Below are positions 21,775-28,838 of a stretch of 64,000 bases of DNA, one piece after another. The stretch lies in contig NZ_VFNP01000001.1 in assembly GCF_006715635.1 (NCBI RefSeq), positions 434,001-498,000 on the forward strand, in the 5' to 3' direction. The DNA comes from Streptomyces sp. SLBN-118. GTDB lineage: Bacteria; Actinomycetota; Actinomycetes; Streptomycetales; Streptomycetaceae. Position 1 is the stretch's first letter; each line of letters begins with the position of its first letter. The notes under the pieces were generated by a model. It was not told the origin of the DNA. It saw only the letters and a list, made by a program, of their open reading frames with translations, and ran no database searches. A program made the translations under genes and the position numbers.

Positions 21775-23115
21775 ATGGAGCAAGCCTCGGTGTCCGGCGA
21801 CCCGGACGGCGCAGGCTTACGCAAACCGCCGACGGCACCATCGGCGGAATGCAAGCTGCATTCTGCGACGCGGGACGTCCGGCTGCTGTGGTCCGCGAAC
21901 GCGGCCGACGCGCTCGGCACGCACATGTCGACCGTCGCCTTCCCCTTGCTGCTTCTAGGACTCGGCTACACACCTGCGACAGTCGGCCTCCTCGCCGGTG
22001 CGGGCCTGCTCGTGGCCCTGGTGTGCGGCCCAGTCGTGGCGGTTGCGGCCGACCGGGGCTTACGCAAGCCCGTGATGGTCACCTCCGCAGCCCTCGCGGC
22101 CACGGCCATGGCTGCGGTGGCCGCGTCCGTCGTCAGCGGGCAGCCACCACTCGGTCTGCTCCTCGGGGCCTTCTTGGCGGAACGCATCGCCACCGCATGC
22201 TTCGAGGCCGCGGCCCGCGGCACCATCGCGCTGGTCTCCGCGCCGCAGGACCTCCCGCGGGTGGTGGCGGGCCTCGAAGCGGGCGACCGTGCCGCGCTGG
22301 TGGCCGGCCCCGCCCTCGGCGGAATGCTCTACCAGATCTCCCGCACCATCCCTTTCGCGGCCGACGCCGCCTCCTACGTGGTGACCGCCCTGTGCGTGCG
22401 GTTCATGCGCTCCGACCTGCGAGCAACAAGCCCCACCACGCCCCCGCCCGCTACGGCCGAGGCGATGAGCACCGAAACTCCAGACCCCTGCAGCGGCAGC
22501 GCCTTGCGAGCGCTTCCCGCCTTCGCGCGGGAGGCGTTCGCCGGATTCGCCCTGCTGCGGAGCGCCCCTCGGCTGCGGCTGGTCATGGCCTGGACGACGA
22601 CCGTCAACGCCGCGCTGTCCGCCCTGTACTTCACCGCCGTCTTCACCCTCCAGGCCGGCGGGGGAGGCGCGGCCATGGGAGTGGTGCTGGCGCTGTCCGG
22701 AGCAGCCGGACTCGTCGGCTCCGTCATGGCACCGGCACTGGTGCGACGGCTCGGCGGCGCGCGAACGCTCGTCGGGGTCACCTGGCTGATGGTGCTGCCG
22801 TCAGGAGGACTGGCATTCGCCGAAGGGCCCTGGGCGTACGGGCTCTGCTTCGGCACCTTCTGCCTGATCCTCGCGCCGGCCACCGTGGTCATCCAGGCCG
22901 CCGCCATCGCCGACACCCCCTCCCATCTCCAGGCGAGAACCGGAGCGGTACTCGCCACGGCCGCCATCGGCGCCGCGGCAGTAAGCCCGGTGCTCGCCGG
23001 GGCGCTCGTCACTCATGACGGCCCTGCCCCCTCCGCGGTGGTCTGCGCCGCCGCCCTCGCACTCCTGGCGCTGTTCACCTCCGTGCGCGCCGGACGTCTG
23101 AAGACCGGAGGCTGA
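21775..23115 (+). CDS. MFS transporter, likely exporter of the RiPP product
   Basis: The 446-residue protein has about 12 membrane segments and the layout of the drug/peptide-efflux MFS group (for example LLWSANAADALGTHMSTVAF and a GLLAGAGLLVALVCGPVVAV helix pair). ATG 21775 follows GAAGGGGGCAGGC. Three bases separate its stop from the peptidase start, so the two are co-transcribed. Two leucines (codons 15 and 96) use the rare TTA codon in the same context, GGC TTA CGC AA, which in Streptomyces makes translation depend on the bldA tRNA. From position it probably exports the processed peptide. Confidence 0.8.
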   Translation: MEQASVSGDPDGAGLRKPPTAPSAECKLHSATRDVRLLWSANAADALGTHMSTVAFPLLLLGLGYTPATVGLLAGAGLLVALVCGPVVAVAADRGLRKPVMVTSAALAATAMAAVAASVVSGQPPLGLLLGAFLAERIATACFEAAARGTIALVSAPQDLPRVVAGLEAGDRAALVAGPALGGMLYQISRTIPFAADAASYVVTALCVRFMRSDLRATSPTTPPPATAEAMSTETPDPCSGSALRALPAFAREAFAGFALLRSAPRLRLVMAWTTTVNAALSALYFTAVFTLQAGGGGAAMGVVLALSGAAGLVGSVMAPALVRRLGGARTLVGVTWLMVLPSGGLAFAEGPWAYGLCFGTFCLILAPATVVIQAAAIADTPSHLQARTGAVLATAAIGAAAVSPVLAGALVTHDGPAPSAVVCAAALALLALFTSVRAGRLKTGG

Positions 23116-23118
23116 CCG

Positions 23119-24981
23119 GTGACCGAACCCCTCACAGCAGGCACGCCGCAGCCCCCCGCCCCGGACAACGCTGGGCGACCCGGCTCGCGCTACCAGACCT
23201 ACCGCAGCGAGCTGCCCGAGGTGTGCGCAACCGATCCCACCCGTATGGCATTCACCGCCGACGCCGACGGCCGGTGCGAGGTGTTCACCTGGAACGCAGC
23301 CACCGGCCGGGCCCGCCAGGTCACCGACCGCCCGCGCGGCACACTGCACACCGCCATCGACCGCGACGGACACGTGTGGTGGTTCGACGAGGACGCAAAC
23401 GGGCTCGGACGCTGGATGTTCCAGCCCTTCGACGGCGGGCCCGACCTGCCAGGCCTCAGAGGCGTCCCGCCCGGCGTCGCTCGCGGCCTGGGAGTCGCCG
23501 AAGACGCCACCGTCGCCATGGCTGTGGGCACGGGCACGGGCACGGAGACGGGCACCACCATCCACATCGGACCGCGCGGCGCACAGGCCCGGCCGGTGGC
23601 CCAGGTCGACGGTCACGCAGCCCTCGCGGGCATCTCACCCAACGGGCAGTACCTGGCGATCAGCGGGCCGGCAGGCGCCGCCCGCGCGGTGACCGTCATC
23701 TCGCCGAGCGGCACCGTCCAGGCGGTTCTGCCCGGCGGCCCCGGCGGCAGCCAACTGTGGGCGCTCGGTTTCTCCCCCATGGCGCAGCGCGAGCAACTTC
23801 TGCTCGTCCAGCAGCGCCACGACCGCTACGTGCTTGCCGGATGGCAGCCCGGCACCGGTCTGCGCATCTTCGACTGGTGCACCTTCGCCACGGAGATCAC
23901 CGCCTCCTGGTACCCCGATCGCGCCTGCGTGCTCATCCGCCAGGACCGCCACGGCCGCAGCCACCTGCACCACGCAGACCTCGACACCCGCACGGTCACC
24001 CCGGTCCCGACCCCTGCCGGCACCTTGCTGGCCGCCGCCGCGCGGCCCGGCAACGATGTGCACTATCTGTGGACCTCCACCGCGCAGCCGCCGCGTATGC
24101 AGTCGACCGCGGGCCTGCCGCTGCCCCGGCTCGGAACGGTGGACGGCCACGTTCCGGGCGAGCACAGTGAGCTGTGGACATCGGGCATCGACGGGCCCGT
24201 GCACACCCTCCTCAGCCTTCCCGAGGGCATCTCACCAGCGCCGGCCGTCTTCCTTGTGCACGGCGGCCCCGCCGATCACGACCGCGACGCCTACGACGGC
24301 GTCGTGCACTCCCTGGTGGGCTCCGGGTTCGCGGTCGTTCGCGTCAACTACCGTGGCTCCACCGGCTACGGGCCACGATGGCGGCGCGCCTACACGGCCG
24401 GCGTCGGACTCACCCAGGTACAGGACCTGGCCGCCGTCCGCGCCGATCTGATCCGCCGCGCGCTCGTACGCGACGACGCCATCGCCCTGTGGGGCACTTC
24501 CTGGGGCGGCTACCTGACGCTGCTCGCACTCGGCGTCGACCCCGAACTCTGGCAGGCCGCCGTCGCGGTCAAACCCGTCGCCGATTGCGCCGCCGCCTAC
24601 CGCACCACCACACCGGCGCTCCGCGCCCTCGACGAGCGCCTGTTCGGCGGCACACCCGACGAGGTGCCCGACGCCTACGCCCGCAGCTCCCCCATCCACT
24701 ACGCGGGACTCGTACGCGCCCCGCTGCTGGTCGTCGCCGCCGAACGCGACGACAAATGCCCACCGGGGCAAGTCCGCGACTACCTCACCGCGCTCAACGA
24801 CGCAGGCGTACGGCACGAGGAGATGTGGCTCGACACCGGCCACGACGGCTACGACGGCCAGGACCATGTCGCGGTTCTGCGCCGCGCCATCACCTTCCTC
24901 GACCACGAGCTGCGCGGAGCCCGTCGCACAACGAGCCGCAAGACTCCCGAGAGCCGCACTCGGACCACAGCGAACCCCTAG
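23119..24981 (+). CDS. S9-family (prolyl oligopeptidase-type) peptidase
   Basis: This 620-residue protein has an N-terminal beta-propeller region (about 30-370) and a C-terminal alpha/beta-hydrolase domain. The serine nucleophile is Ser461 in LWGTSWGGYL; Asp544 in VVAAERDDKCPPGQ and His575 in DTGHDGYDG complete the triad. The fold and the HGGPADHDRDAYDG oxyanion loop are those of S9 peptidases, which often cut after proline. No signal peptide is present. It lies between the exporter and the precursor peptide, so it probably removes the leader and may release or cyclise the core; that role is inference. Confidence 0.85.
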   Translation: MTEPLTAGTPQPPAPDNAGRPGSRYQTYRSELPEVCATDPTRMAFTADADGRCEVFTWNAATGRARQVTDRPRGTLHTAIDRDGHVWWFDEDANGLGRWMFQPFDGGPDLPGLRGVPPGVARGLGVAEDATVAMAVGTGTGTETGTTIHIGPRGAQARPVAQVDGHAALAGISPNGQYLAISGPAGAARAVTVISPSGTVQAVLPGGPGGSQLWALGFSPMAQREQLLLVQQRHDRYVLAGWQPGTGLRIFDWCTFATEITASWYPDRACVLIRQDRHGRSHLHHADLDTRTVTPVPTPAGTLLAAAARPGNDVHYLWTSTAQPPRMQSTAGLPLPRLGTVDGHVPGEHSELWTSGIDGPVHTLLSLPEGISPAPAVFLVHGGPADHDRDAYDGVVHSLVGSGFAVVRVNYRGSTGYGPRWRRAYTAGVGLTQVQDLAAVRADLIRRALVRDDAIALWGTSWGGYLTLLALGVDPELWQAAVAVKPVADCAAAYRTTTPALRALDERLFGGTPDEVPDAYARSSPIHYAGLVRAPLLVVAAERDDKCPPGQVRDYLTALNDAGVRHEEMWLDTGHDGYDGQDHVAVLRRAITFLDHELRGARRTTSRKTPESRTRTTANP

Positions 24982-25079
24982 ACGTCCCGCTCCGACCGGA
25001 GGGGGATCCCGGCCGCACCGCCGTCCGCGAGAACGCCGGGACAGGCACCAAGCCAGGCACCACGGAGAGGAGGCACACC

Positions 25080-25199
25080 GTGCAGAAGGACATCATCAAC
25101 AACGACCCGCTGGCGGGTGACGAGGAGAACCGCAAGCCGAGCGTCGGGATCACCATCACGATCCCGTTCCGCAACGCCGAAGACTCCGAAGAGGACTGA
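25080..25199 (+). CDS. RiPP precursor peptide (putative)
   Basis: A 39-residue peptide is encoded from GTG 25080, with a strong GAGAGGAGG ribosome-binding site. The leader is Asp/Asn/Glu-rich (KDIINNDPLAGDEENRK). A beta-strand-like core SVGITITIPF (residues 21-30) follows, then a short acidic tail ending EDSEED. There is no Cys, so it is not a lanthipeptide or sactipeptide substrate. Prolines at 10, 20 and 29 flank the core, matching proline-specific cleavage by the adjacent S9 enzyme. Alternative candidates for modification by the radical SAM enzyme are Val22, Ile24, Thr25, Ile26, Thr27, Ile28, Pro29 and Phe30. Confidence 0.75.
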   Translation: MQKDIINNDPLAGDEENRKPSVGITITIPFRNAEDSEED

Positions 25200-25206
25200 T
25201 CCGGAT

Positions 25207-25242
25207 ACCGGCCGGTCCGGCGTACCTGCCGGGCCGGCCGGT
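25207..25242 (+). terminator. Attenuator-like hairpin after precursor gene
   Basis: A 15-bp stem (25207-25221 with 25228-25242, one G-U pair) around a 6-base loop begins seven bases after the precursor stop and ends 67 bases before the radical SAM start. It could stop part of transcription or stabilise the precursor message. Confidence 0.6.
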
Positions 25243-25308
25243 GCCCCACCCATCAACCCGGGCACCTGCCTGCGACGCAGCTTCCGCTCATACCCTCAAG
25301 GAGCCGAC

Positions 25309-27279
25309 GTGCGAGTACTGCTGGTCAATATGCCGTGGTCCCCCATCGACCTGCCCTCACTCGCCCTCGGCATCCTCAAACGCAGCATCGACGAACGCGT
25401 CATAGGCGCCCGGGCCGAAGTGCTGCACGCCAACCTGGAATTCACCGACTGGATCACCAAGCGCACCGAATTCACCGCCGACGACTACGAGTACTACGCG
25501 CTTTCCTCCTACTTCATGGGATGCGGCGACTGGGTCTTCTCCTCCGCCCTCTACGACGACCCGGAGTGGAAGGAGGACGAGTTCACACAGGTGATGAGCA
25601 ACCGACTGCGCAAGTCCCGGATGCGGATGACCAAGAAACTGCACCGGCAGGTACCGCAGTTCGTGGAGGAAATCGCACAGCGCATCGTCGATCACGCCCC
25701 GGACGTCGTCGGATTCACCTCCACCTTCCAGCAGAACACCGCCGCACTGGCAGCCGCCAGGCACGTCAAACGACTCGCACCGCACATCGTGACCGTCATG
25801 GGCGGCGCCAACTGCGACGCGGAACAAGGAGCCGCCGTCCACCGCAACTTCCTCTTTGTGGACCACGTCATCCGGGGCGAAGGAGAAACGGCCTTCCCTC
25901 AACTCGTGACCAGTCTCTCCGAAGGGCAGACCGACCTGTCCGCGATCCCGGGCCTGTGCCACCGCAAGGCCGACGGCACGAGCGTCGCCAACGCCATGGC
26001 CACCGCTCCGCTGCCGCCCGCCCACATCCTTCCACCCGACTACAGCGGCTACTTCGAGTGCCTTGCCTCCTCCGTCGCCCGCAACTGGGTCGAACCGAAG
26101 CTCGTCGTCGAAGGCGCCCGCGGCTGCTGGTGGGGTGAGAAGCACCACTGCACCTTCTGCGGACTGAACGGCTCCTTCATGCAGTTCCGCAGCAAGAGCC
26201 CCGAGGTGTTCTACGAAGAGATCATGGACCTTGCCAGGCGGCACCGCGTCCTGGACATGTACGTCGTGGACAACATCCTCGACATGGGCTATCTCAACAC
26301 CGTGCTGCCACGCATCATCGAGAGCGGCTACGACCTGCGCCTGCACATCGAGATCAAGGCCAACATGCGCCGGTCCCAACTGCGCACCCTCTCCGACGCC
26401 GGACTGATCTACGTCCAGCCGGGCATCGAGAGCCTCAACAACCGGGTGCTGGACCTGATGGACAAGGGCGTCAGCGGCTGCCAGAACGTCCGCATGCTCC
26501 GCGACGGAGCCGAGACGGGCCTGTCGGTGTCATGGAACTACCTCCACGGATTCCCCGGTGAGAGCGCCGAGGACTACGCACCGATCATCGAACAGATCCC
26601 GGCCCTGGAACACCTCGATCCGCCCGTCGACATGTCCGCCCGTATCGCCATCGAACGGTTCAGCCCGTACTTCAACCGCCCCGAACTCGGCTTCACGGGC
26701 CTCAGGCCGGAGGCACACTACCGCTTCACCTACGACCTGCCCGAGCGGGAGCTGTACGACATGGCCTACGTCTTCGAGGCTCCCGCCCGCGGCATCGGCG
26801 AACCCACCGTCACCGCACTCAACGACGCGCTCGCCGGCTGGAAGAAGCACCACGTGGACGCCCGCCTCACCCACGCGGACCTCGGCGACCGCATCGTGCT
26901 GGTCAGTCGGCGCCGGGCGTTCGACTGGCGCGCGATCGAACTGACCGACCCCCTCGAAGTCGCGCTGTTCCGTCTCCTGGACCAGCCGCACGCACCGGCT
27001 GCCCTCACCCGCAAGGCAGCGGCACGTACTGCCGGGGACGCACATGGCCAGGACGAGGTACAGCACATCCTGGACCGCTGGACCGCCCTGGGGGTGCTCT
27101 TCACCGACGGAGGCCAGTACGTGCACATCGCCCCCGCCGCCGTCAACGAGGACCTGCTGCGCCTGGACTTCATGCGTCATCTGCACACGGCCGAGGCATT
27201 CACCACGCCCGAGAGCACGTCCGGCGGCGACATGTCCGCAACGGCGCTGCAGAGTGCCCAGCCGCCCCTGACGGTCTGA
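25309..27279 (+). CDS. B12-dependent radical SAM RiPP maturation enzyme
   Basis: The 656-residue enzyme starts at GTG 25309 after AAGGAG. Residues 1-200 are a cobalamin-binding-like domain (LLVNMPWSPIDLPSLALGIL, then PDVVGFTSTFQQNTAALAAA and IVTVMGGANCD). The radical SAM core carries the variant motif C273-X7-C281-X2-C284 in RGCWWGEKHHCTFCGLNG, typical of the RiPP C-methyltransferase group (TIGR03975-like). The last 90 residues (about 527-615) resemble a PqqD-like winged leader-binding domain. It probably methylates or otherwise modifies an unreactive carbon of the precursor core. Confidence 0.88.
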   Translation: MRVLLVNMPWSPIDLPSLALGILKRSIDERVIGARAEVLHANLEFTDWITKRTEFTADDYEYYALSSYFMGCGDWVFSSALYDDPEWKEDEFTQVMSNRLRKSRMRMTKKLHRQVPQFVEEIAQRIVDHAPDVVGFTSTFQQNTAALAAARHVKRLAPHIVTVMGGANCDAEQGAAVHRNFLFVDHVIRGEGETAFPQLVTSLSEGQTDLSAIPGLCHRKADGTSVANAMATAPLPPAHILPPDYSGYFECLASSVARNWVEPKLVVEGARGCWWGEKHHCTFCGLNGSFMQFRSKSPEVFYEEIMDLARRHRVLDMYVVDNILDMGYLNTVLPRIIESGYDLRLHIEIKANMRRSQLRTLSDAGLIYVQPGIESLNNRVLDLMDKGVSGCQNVRMLRDGAETGLSVSWNYLHGFPGESAEDYAPIIEQIPALEHLDPPVDMSARIAIERFSPYFNRPELGFTGLRPEAHYRFTYDLPERELYDMAYVFEAPARGIGEPTVTALNDALAGWKKHHVDARLTHADLGDRIVLVSRRRAFDWRAIELTDPLEVALFRLLDQPHAPAALTRKAAARTAGDAHGQDEVQHILDRWTALGVLFTDGGQYVHIAPAAVNEDLLRLDFMRHLHTAEAFTTPESTSGGDMSATALQSAQPPLTV

Positions 27280-27305
27280 CCCCCGATGTGCCCCCAGGAG
27301 GCTTC

Positions 27306-27998
27306 ATGAACACCGCGCTCCACGCGCCTGGCATCCGCGGCGAATCCCCTCTGACCGTCACCGCCTGGCGCGACTACGATCCGGCCGTCTGCGCCCTTTT
27401 GGGCATGTCACTCGGTGACCACGAACTCTCCCGGCCCATCGCCCAGGAGAGCGAGCACCTGTGGAACCTCGGCGCACGGCGCGTCGTCATGCCCCACCCC
27501 ATCGACCTCACCCGCGCCGCGACCGGCACGCGGGCGGCGGCGCAGCACACTGTGCGGTCCCTCAGCCTTGTACGGGACCTCACCGCCCGCGCCGTACTCG
27601 TCGAATGGCAGCTGCGCCTCGAACCCGACGACGACGAGACGTGGAAACTCCTGAGCCACCTCCAGCCGCCCCAGCACGTTGCCGGACCCCTGCAGGGGGA
27701 CGAGCAGTTGCTCACCTGGCGGCACACCCACTACCTGTGCAAGTGCCTGTGGCGACAGGGACCCGGCTTCATTCAGATTCGCGACCGCCGCTGGGGCGAC
27801 CTGCGCCGCTTCACGTCCGACGAAGCTCACTACCACCAGGCGATCGCACTGCTGGACTACGGCGCTGAGGCGGCGTCCGTTCCTCAGGACGTCCTGGCCG
27901 ATTTCACCGAGGAACATCTGGTCCTCACCGTCGGCGAGTTCGCCTGGTGGCTTCCCTACCGTGTCAAACGCTGGATCCAGGAAGCGATGGCCATCTGA
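27306..27998 (+). CDS. DUF5825-like protein of RiPP cluster
   Basis: This 230-residue soluble protein follows the radical SAM gene by 26 bases with an AGGAGG ribosome-binding site before ATG 27306. Conserved-looking segments are LTVTAWRDYDPAVCALLG, WNLGARRVVMPHPIDLTRAA, and HYLCKCLWRQGPGFIQIRDR. I recall this family (DUF5825) as a partner of B12-radical SAM RiPP enzymes, but its activity is not known to me. It may act as a chaperone or docking partner for the precursor or enzyme. It is the last gene of the operon. Confidence 0.75.
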   Translation: MNTALHAPGIRGESPLTVTAWRDYDPAVCALLGMSLGDHELSRPIAQESEHLWNLGARRVVMPHPIDLTRAATGTRAAAQHTVRSLSLVRDLTARAVLVEWQLRLEPDDDETWKLLSHLQPPQHVAGPLQGDEQLLTWRHTHYLCKCLWRQGPGFIQIRDRRWGDLRRFTSDEAHYHQAIALLDYGAEAASVPQDVLADFTEEHLVLTVGEFAWWLPYRVKRWIQEAMAI

Positions 27999-28026: not shown

Positions 28027-28590
28027 TTACAGCATCACGTGCTTGGCCTGCGTGTAGTCCAACAGGCCCGCCAGGGACAGGCCGCTGCCGTAGCCCGAAT
28101 GCCTGACACCGCCGTGCGGCATCTCGGACACGGTGGTGCCGTGCGTGTTGACCCAGACGATGCCGGTACGAAGAGCCCTCATCGCCCGCATGGCCCGCTC
28201 GTGATGCGTGGTCCAGACGCCGGCTGCCGGACCGTACCGCACGTCGTTGGCGAGACGAAGGGCTTCGGACTCGTCGGCGAAGGGCTGGACGGTGACCACC
28301 GGGCCGAAGATTTCCTCCTGGACGATCTCGTCGCTCTGGCAGACGCCGGTGACGACGGTGGCCTCATGGTAGAAGCCGGGGCCCCGTGCCTCGTTGCCGC
28401 CCGTCGCGATCTTTGCGTGGCCGGGCAGGCGTTCCAGCAGGCCCTTCACGGCGGCGAGCTGGGAGGCGTTGTTGAGGGGACCGAAGTCGATGCCCGGGGT
28501 CAGGTCTGCCGCGCAGGCGGCGAAGGCGTCCACGAATGGCGTCATGGATACGGGCGTCAACGAGCAGGCGGGTGGGTGCCTGCGACCGCA
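28027..28590 (-). pseudogene. Aldehyde dehydrogenase, C-terminal remnant
   Basis: The minus strand encodes the ALDH C-terminal catalytic third: DFGPLNNASQLAAVKGLLER, IVQEEIFGPVVTVQPF (the NAD-dependent EIFGPV motif), TGIVWVNTHGTTVSEMPHGG and GYGSGLSLAGLLDYTQ. The upstream stretch SQAPTRLLVDARIHDA lies in a different frame; an extra base at about 28537 breaks the frame between it and FVDAFAACAADLTPG. Everything before that, including the Rossmann domain and catalytic Cys, is gone. It ends where an acyl-CoA dehydrogenase fragment begins on the other strand. Confidence 0.75.
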
Positions 28591-28595
28591 GGACA

Positions 28596-28838
28596 CTCCA
28601 CGCGAAGGCGGCCATCGCCAAACTGTCCGCGAGCGAGGCGGCGGGCCGGGTCATCGACCGGTGCGTGCAGATCTTCGGCGGCCGCGGCTACGACCGCTCC
28701 TACGCCGTCGACCGCCTCTACCGAGAACTGCGCGTCGACCGCATCTGGGAAGGCACCTCCGAAATCCAGCGCCTGATCATCGCGGGTGAACTGGTCAAGC
28801 GGGGCTCGGGCGTTCTGCAGATGCCGTCCCCCGCCTGA
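28596..28838 (+). pseudogene. Acyl-CoA dehydrogenase, C-terminal remnant
   Basis: The plus strand encodes about 80 residues of the acyl-CoA dehydrogenase C-terminus: AAIAKLSASEAAGRVIDRCVQIFGGRG and LYRELRVDRIWEGTSEIQ, then RLIIAGELVKRG and the stop. This covers the helix bundle that contacts FAD of a neighbouring subunit. The first 300 residues, with substrate and FAD binding, are missing. The 5' side abuts the ALDH remnant at about 28590. Confidence 0.8.

Follow-up and report, generated by a model that had tools for sequence, protein, structure and literature searches.

The compact group of five co-directional genes at window positions 21775-27998 raises the question of what it makes, and whether the product belongs to a class already described. 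The window is the whole 64,000-nt stretch of DNA analysed, corresponding to contig positions 434001-498000 in a two-contig genome of 7.79 Mb. All five genes lie on the plus strand in the order MFS transporter, S9 peptidase, precursor peptide, radical SAM (rSAM) enzyme and DUF5825 protein; an earlier note on this DNA had read the same series, including a ribosome-binding site (RBS) before the peptide gene, and Pfam and TIGR03975 searches found it where the note had placed it. The genome holds a single DUF5825 match and a single TIGR03975 match, and each of the ORFs flanking the cassette is common to at most 6 of 81 related loci.

The putative precursor is a 39-aa ORF with a GTG start (25080..25199, plus strand), preceded by the RBS GGAGAGGAGG (25064..25073, plus strand), of which the portion GAGAGGAG is invariant in an 8-locus alignment. 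Its translation contains no cysteine, as the earlier note had said, and it gave no family match in Pfam or NCBIfam at E up to 1. To place it among relatives, we used a named set of 82 loci consisting of the best 80 of 516 relatives by rSAM, the window and the Streptomyces clavuligerus plasmid locus L031, a biased set in that the 80 relatives were picked by rSAM similarity and are all Streptomyces. A full precursor lay upstream of the rSAM gene in 78 of the 82 loci, which bears out the earlier reading of a RiPP cluster with an SVGITITIP-like core and the same gene order elsewhere, and is the opposite of the absence of neighbouring precursors that would have spoken against it. Among the four other loci, the contig starts within ~110 bases of the rSAM gene in two (L097 and L106) and runs of N occur in two (L086 and L112), one of which retains the precursor start.

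The 78 loci carry 60 distinct precursor sequences which share, with few exceptions, the pattern MQKD(I/V)I-x-N-D-P-L ... E-(N/S)-R-x-P followed by a beta-branched core and an acidic tail. Over codons 2-33 the median dN was 0.071 against a median dS of 0.307 (75 usable of 77 pairs with the window), and the summed differences amounted to 467 for the first two codon positions combined against 442 for the third, so that differences per site are about twice as frequent at position 3. In addition, a precursor model built from 22 sequences and run on 80 genomes (G000-G079) matched 11 of them with a single hit apiece (E up to 0.01). Exactly these 11 genomes carry a DUF5825 match above 240 bits, a line set after the scores were known, with the next DUF5825 score at 214.9 (G014). 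Thus, in this sample, the precursor was not found without its enzymes, nor the >240-bit DUF5825 type without the precursor, contrary to an rSAM gene found mainly without a peptide gene, the other observation that the earlier note had named as counting against its reading. The ORF is short and without a family model, as would be expected if it had arisen by chance and the enzymes acted on something else, but given its homologues in 78 of 82 loci, a dN well below dS, the conserved RBS and its single copy in exactly those 11 genomes, we find this hardly credible; judged by its sequence conservation, the 39-aa precursor is more than a chance ORF.

The other genes recur with it. Of the 82 named loci, 80 carry the S9 gene and 81 carry DUF5825, both S9 misses and the DUF5825 miss being contig ends; an MFS homologue precedes the S9 gene in 76. 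Four of the six loci without an MFS homologue (L076, L097, L106 and L116) offer only a short stretch upstream, while L094 and L136 extend 9 kb in that direction and show no MFS match. A less biased set was drawn from DUF5825 itself: scoring no more than 16 candidates in each genome, we found it in 36 of 199 relatives, own genome counted, at 39 places. Across the order, where no more than 8 candidates were scored in each genome, it was found in 86 genomes out of 391. An rSAM gene lies immediately upstream on the same strand at 37 of the 39 places (window and G019/L032 included), the other two (L071 and L072) being DUF5825 fragments, and an S9 gene is present at 20. From the side of the enzyme, TIGR03975 matched 22 places in the 80 genomes (E up to 1e-60), 19 of which coincide with DUF5825, while three are without a listed DUF5825 (G078, one of two in G038 and one of three in G016).

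The rSAM protein (656 aa; 25309..27279, plus strand) matched TIGR03975 over its full length with 625.9 bits against a curated cut-off of 281.85, so the family named in the earlier note stands. A mechanical ORF list begins its frame at GTG 25117, within the precursor, but we favour the start at 25309, since an alignment of 41 rSAMs shows M1-R2-V3 to be invariant. The cobalamin-domain-like N-terminus and CX7CX2C motif noticed earlier correspond to a B12-binding domain (PF02310) at residues 114-199 and to C273/C281/C284, likewise invariant in the 41 rSAMs, with the radical SAM domain (PF04055) at residues 271-429. In a tree built by a quick method, the window enzyme groups with those of S. wuyuanensis, Streptomyces sp. 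I6 and S. bambusae (SH-aLRT 98).

The fold of this enzyme bears on what it may do to the peptide. The nearest folds to its predicted model were the B12-rSAM methyltransferases TokK and CysS, with TsrM also similar, all at 15-20% identity; further matches were OxsB, which is non-methylating, and the dehydratase AprD4. The last two matches would suit a cassette of the same gene order whose rSAM does not methylate but, for example, cross-links or epimerises its substrate, and the excerpted text of PMC12257519 describes a B12-rSAM, PbsB, capable of cross-linking. We consider such chemistry improbable here, given that the nearest folds are methyltransferases, that SVGITITIP offers no aromatic residue for cross-linking, and that, in the same excerpts, the B12-rSAM and DUF5825 pair of clavusporin biosynthesis C-methylates amino acids (PMC12257519). 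We expect methylation of the core from the rSAM family and from the clavusporins: of the earlier suggestion of C-methylation or another carbon-centred change, C-methylation appears the likeliest by analogy with the clavusporin pair, and that guess is probably right.

The C-terminal part of the rSAM (residues ~513-606; 26845..27126, plus strand) has predicted strands and helices over E520..E606, and hhalign scored it at 30.3 over 74 columns against the PqqD profile (PF05402), a score that none of 100 column shuffles attained (top shuffle 20.4). The predicted structure is consistent with a possible RRE/PqqD-like winged helix. The adjoining DUF5825 protein (230 aa; 27306..27998, plus strand; PF19142, 252.6 bits) was modelled by AlphaFold2 with a mean pLDDT of 90.9, and a Foldseek search of this model against the PDB gave no match with E up to 0.001. 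Its C-terminus, compared with RREs by profile and by fold, is at most a tentative candidate for an RRE-like domain.

We divide the precursor, by inference, into the leader MQKDIINNDPLAGDEENRKP, the core SVGITITIP and the acidic follower FRNAEDSEED. A proline stands immediately N-terminal to the core in 76 of the 78 precursors of the named set, the window included, which fits the requirement of a prolyl oligopeptidase (POP); two loci (L104 and L107) have valine at this border despite the presence of an S9 gene. In the less biased set, the border proline is found in 18 of 20 S9-bearing loci, the two without it being L048 and L054. The S9 prolyl-oligopeptidase-family serine peptidase of the cassette (620 aa; 23119..24981, plus strand; PF00326, 119.6 bits) keeps the GxSxGGY motif and is probably an MpcP-like leader peptidase; the solved structures closest by sequence to its residues 318-595 are acylaminoacyl-releasing enzymes, so its proline specificity is presumed. 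The 446-aa MFS transporter (21775..23115, plus strand; PF07690, 83.4 bits) is a probable peptide exporter. The core is identical in the window and S. wuyuanensis, and a four-locus clade carries GVGVV(V/I)YL with the second proline missing, which leaves the C-terminus of the product unsure. The computed [M+H]+ is 900.540 for the unmodified core and 2093.003 for SVGITITIPFRNAEDSEED, the peptide with the leader alone removed; each methyl group would add 14.016, which for the core gives 914.556, 928.571 and 942.587 with one, two and three of them.

Between the precursor and rSAM genes lies a hairpin with a 15-bp stem, including one G-U pair, and a 6-nt loop (25207..25242, plus strand), its stem beginning seven bases past the precursor stop. 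In 73 of the 78 loci no more than 2 out of 40 mononucleotide shuffles gave a stem as long, the loci failing this test being L119, L144, L147, L148 and L154. RNAalifold predicted 11 pairs from 77 distinct sequences, 9 of them with compensatory changes on both sides. In the controls, 94.8% of cells were paired against 81.6% in the shuffles, covariation was 0.303 against 0.090, and sliding the columns by 1-3 lowered pairing to 20.7-55.7%; these controls are tilted towards the structure, which was itself taken from this alignment, and also by the kinship of the sequences. The window hairpin has an MFE of -40.3 kcal/mol (z -5.6), and the genome has no second copy of its motif pattern; nothing in Rfam attained the gathering score over this region, and the window sequence has no T run downstream of it. 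A protein-bound DNA dyad would likewise covary. The G-U pairs (10 U-G cells at one pair) favour RNA only slightly, and the hairpin is probably an attenuator, a terminator or a stabiliser of the mRNA 3' end. Ahead of the precursor RBS lies a weak inverted repeat (24985..25006, plus strand) that related loci also show, 39 of 78 exceeding shuffles, but in the window its folding is no better than that of shuffles (z -0.01), and we do not claim it as functional. A literature search, with the primary clavusporin paper outside its scope, found no mention of the hairpin or of a winged-helix rSAM tail.

Taking these observations together, we consider it highly likely, by analogy, that the five genes form a clavusporin-type (mpc-like) RiPP operon in which methylation, S9 cleavage and MFS export would take place. 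The leader, with its MQKDII-NDPL...ENRKP pattern, would probably be bound by the winged-helix C-terminus of the rSAM, by DUF5825 or by both, and the rSAM/DUF5825 pair would pass the methyl group of SAM through methylcobalamin to unactivated carbons of the beta-branched core. The S9 peptidase may then cut after Pro20, removing the leader, and perhaps also after Pro29, and the MFS protein would export the short hydrophobic peptide. The hairpin past the precursor stop probably serves to keep the precursor transcript more abundant than that of the enzymes. In a more specific version, which we put forward tentatively with the balance somewhat against it, the hairpin is an RNA element that sets this precursor excess as an intrinsic attenuator or 3'-end stabiliser, and an RRE-like winged helix belongs to the rSAM itself; DUF5825 would then do something else, for example mould the active site so that methylation can be repeated.

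These assignments put the cassette within a class of Streptomyces peptides that is already described; its core, for which masses are predicted, is a variant by one residue, and the 60 natural precursor variants offer material for studying which residues the B12-rSAM/DUF5825 pair tolerates. The conserved hairpin and the possible leader-binding domain are points of note besides the clavusporin orthology.

The closest known system is that of S. clavuligerus, whose locus L031 we take, from the compound name, to be the published mpc cluster. There, NZ_CP065235.1 carries an MFS gene, an alpha/beta hydrolase, a RiPP maturation rSAM and DUF5825 in the order and strand of the window, and an unlisted 39-aa ORF at L031:9681-9800 is a precursor homologue of the same length as that of the window. 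Identities between the two loci are 52% for MFS, 65% for S9, 80% for rSAM, 58% for DUF5825 and 87% for the precursor, in which the core SVGITITIP is replaced by SVGITITVP and the remaining substitutions fall in leader and follower; the cassette lies on a 4-Mb contig in the window genome and on a linear plasmid in S. clavuligerus. With no Pfam or NCBIfam family for its precursor, the cassette might represent a RiPP class of its own without kinship to clavusporins, but the 87% identical precursor, the like arrangement of the remaining four genes in S. clavuligerus and dozens more orthologues of the cassette make this very improbable. The clavusporin (mpc) pathway was reportedly set out by Zhang, Li, Overton and Seyedsayamdost (Nat Chem Biol 2025, 21:1069); to judge by the title of that paper, clavusporin is a surface-active peptide promoting bacterial development.

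Other B12-rSAM systems stand further away. TokK, CysS and TsrM act on small molecules and not on a ribosomal peptide. The TIGR03975 family of RiPP maturation rSAM C-methyltransferases, above whose cut-off the window enzyme scores, also occurs at places without a listed DUF5825. Some biphenomycin-like (pbs/stg) clusters carry a second B12-rSAM adjacent to DUF5825, according to the excerpts of PMC12257519, and share this adjacency with the window; unlike in those clusters, a Pfam scan of 19 neighbouring ORFs in the window found neither an MNIO nor a second radical SAM domain, and the precursor is without the YHxYxY motif. The likeness to the clavusporin system, so far as the excerpted sources describe it, extends to the pairing of B12-rSAM with DUF5825 and to the S9/POP protease, MpcP, which takes part in leader removal (PMC12951456). 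The novelty of the core implied earlier does not hold, since clavusporins are already characterised in those sources (PMC12257519, PMC12951456) and the S. clavuligerus core is one residue apart. On the sequence evidence, the cassette is a close relative of the known clavusporin pathway and not an unknown class: it is an orthologue of low novelty with one core residue changed from S. clavuligerus, and by analogy its product is very probably a small greasy peptide of the clavusporin type bearing extra methyl groups.

In the clavusporin-type cassette, a conserved and covarying hairpin lies 7 bases 3′ of the precursor stop codon (window 25207-25242), and a search of the strain's own genome with the motif pattern returned this single occurrence. 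The cluster is flanked on the minus strand by an ORF (28027-28596) matching the aldehyde dehydrogenase family profile over positions 301-461 of 461, that is, the last third of the family only, which gives it the appearance of a truncated remnant.

Clavusporin-type clusters are also carried by large linear plasmids, at locus L031 (S. clavuligerus), L032 (Streptomyces sp. NBC_01237) and L033, a location that would fit a distribution that is patchy and perhaps mobile. The S. clavuligerus precursor ORF (L031:9681-9800) overlaps the end of an annotated hydrolase gene and is missing from the PLSDB gene table, which is itself incomplete.

A separate class of DUF5825/radical SAM loci (L063-L067, L069, and L070), with radical SAM enzymes 44-46% identical, had no S9 peptidase match within the fetched stretch. 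In this class, a short conserved ORF lies 2-89 bases ahead of the radical SAM gene, carrying EIKKxxV close to its start and EKRP close to its end, and may represent another precursor family; in L065, an MFS gene is located after DUF5825. No S9 match was found at the DUF5825/radical SAM loci L034 and L061, each of which contains two small precursor-like ORFs with the N-terminus (M/V)EKxVV.

No radical SAM match was found for two DUF5825 remnants, one on a Streptomyces plasmid close to an epsilon-poly-lysine synthase gene (L035:10001-10476) and the other interrupted by an internal TGA (L071, in genome G077). At three further DUF5825 loci (L057, L058, and L059), the upstream sequence holds a second radical SAM match, a distant one, which Pfam confirmed in L058; in this respect the three loci are reminiscent of the clusters with two radical SAM enzymes described in a paper on biphenomycin-like clusters (PMC12257519).
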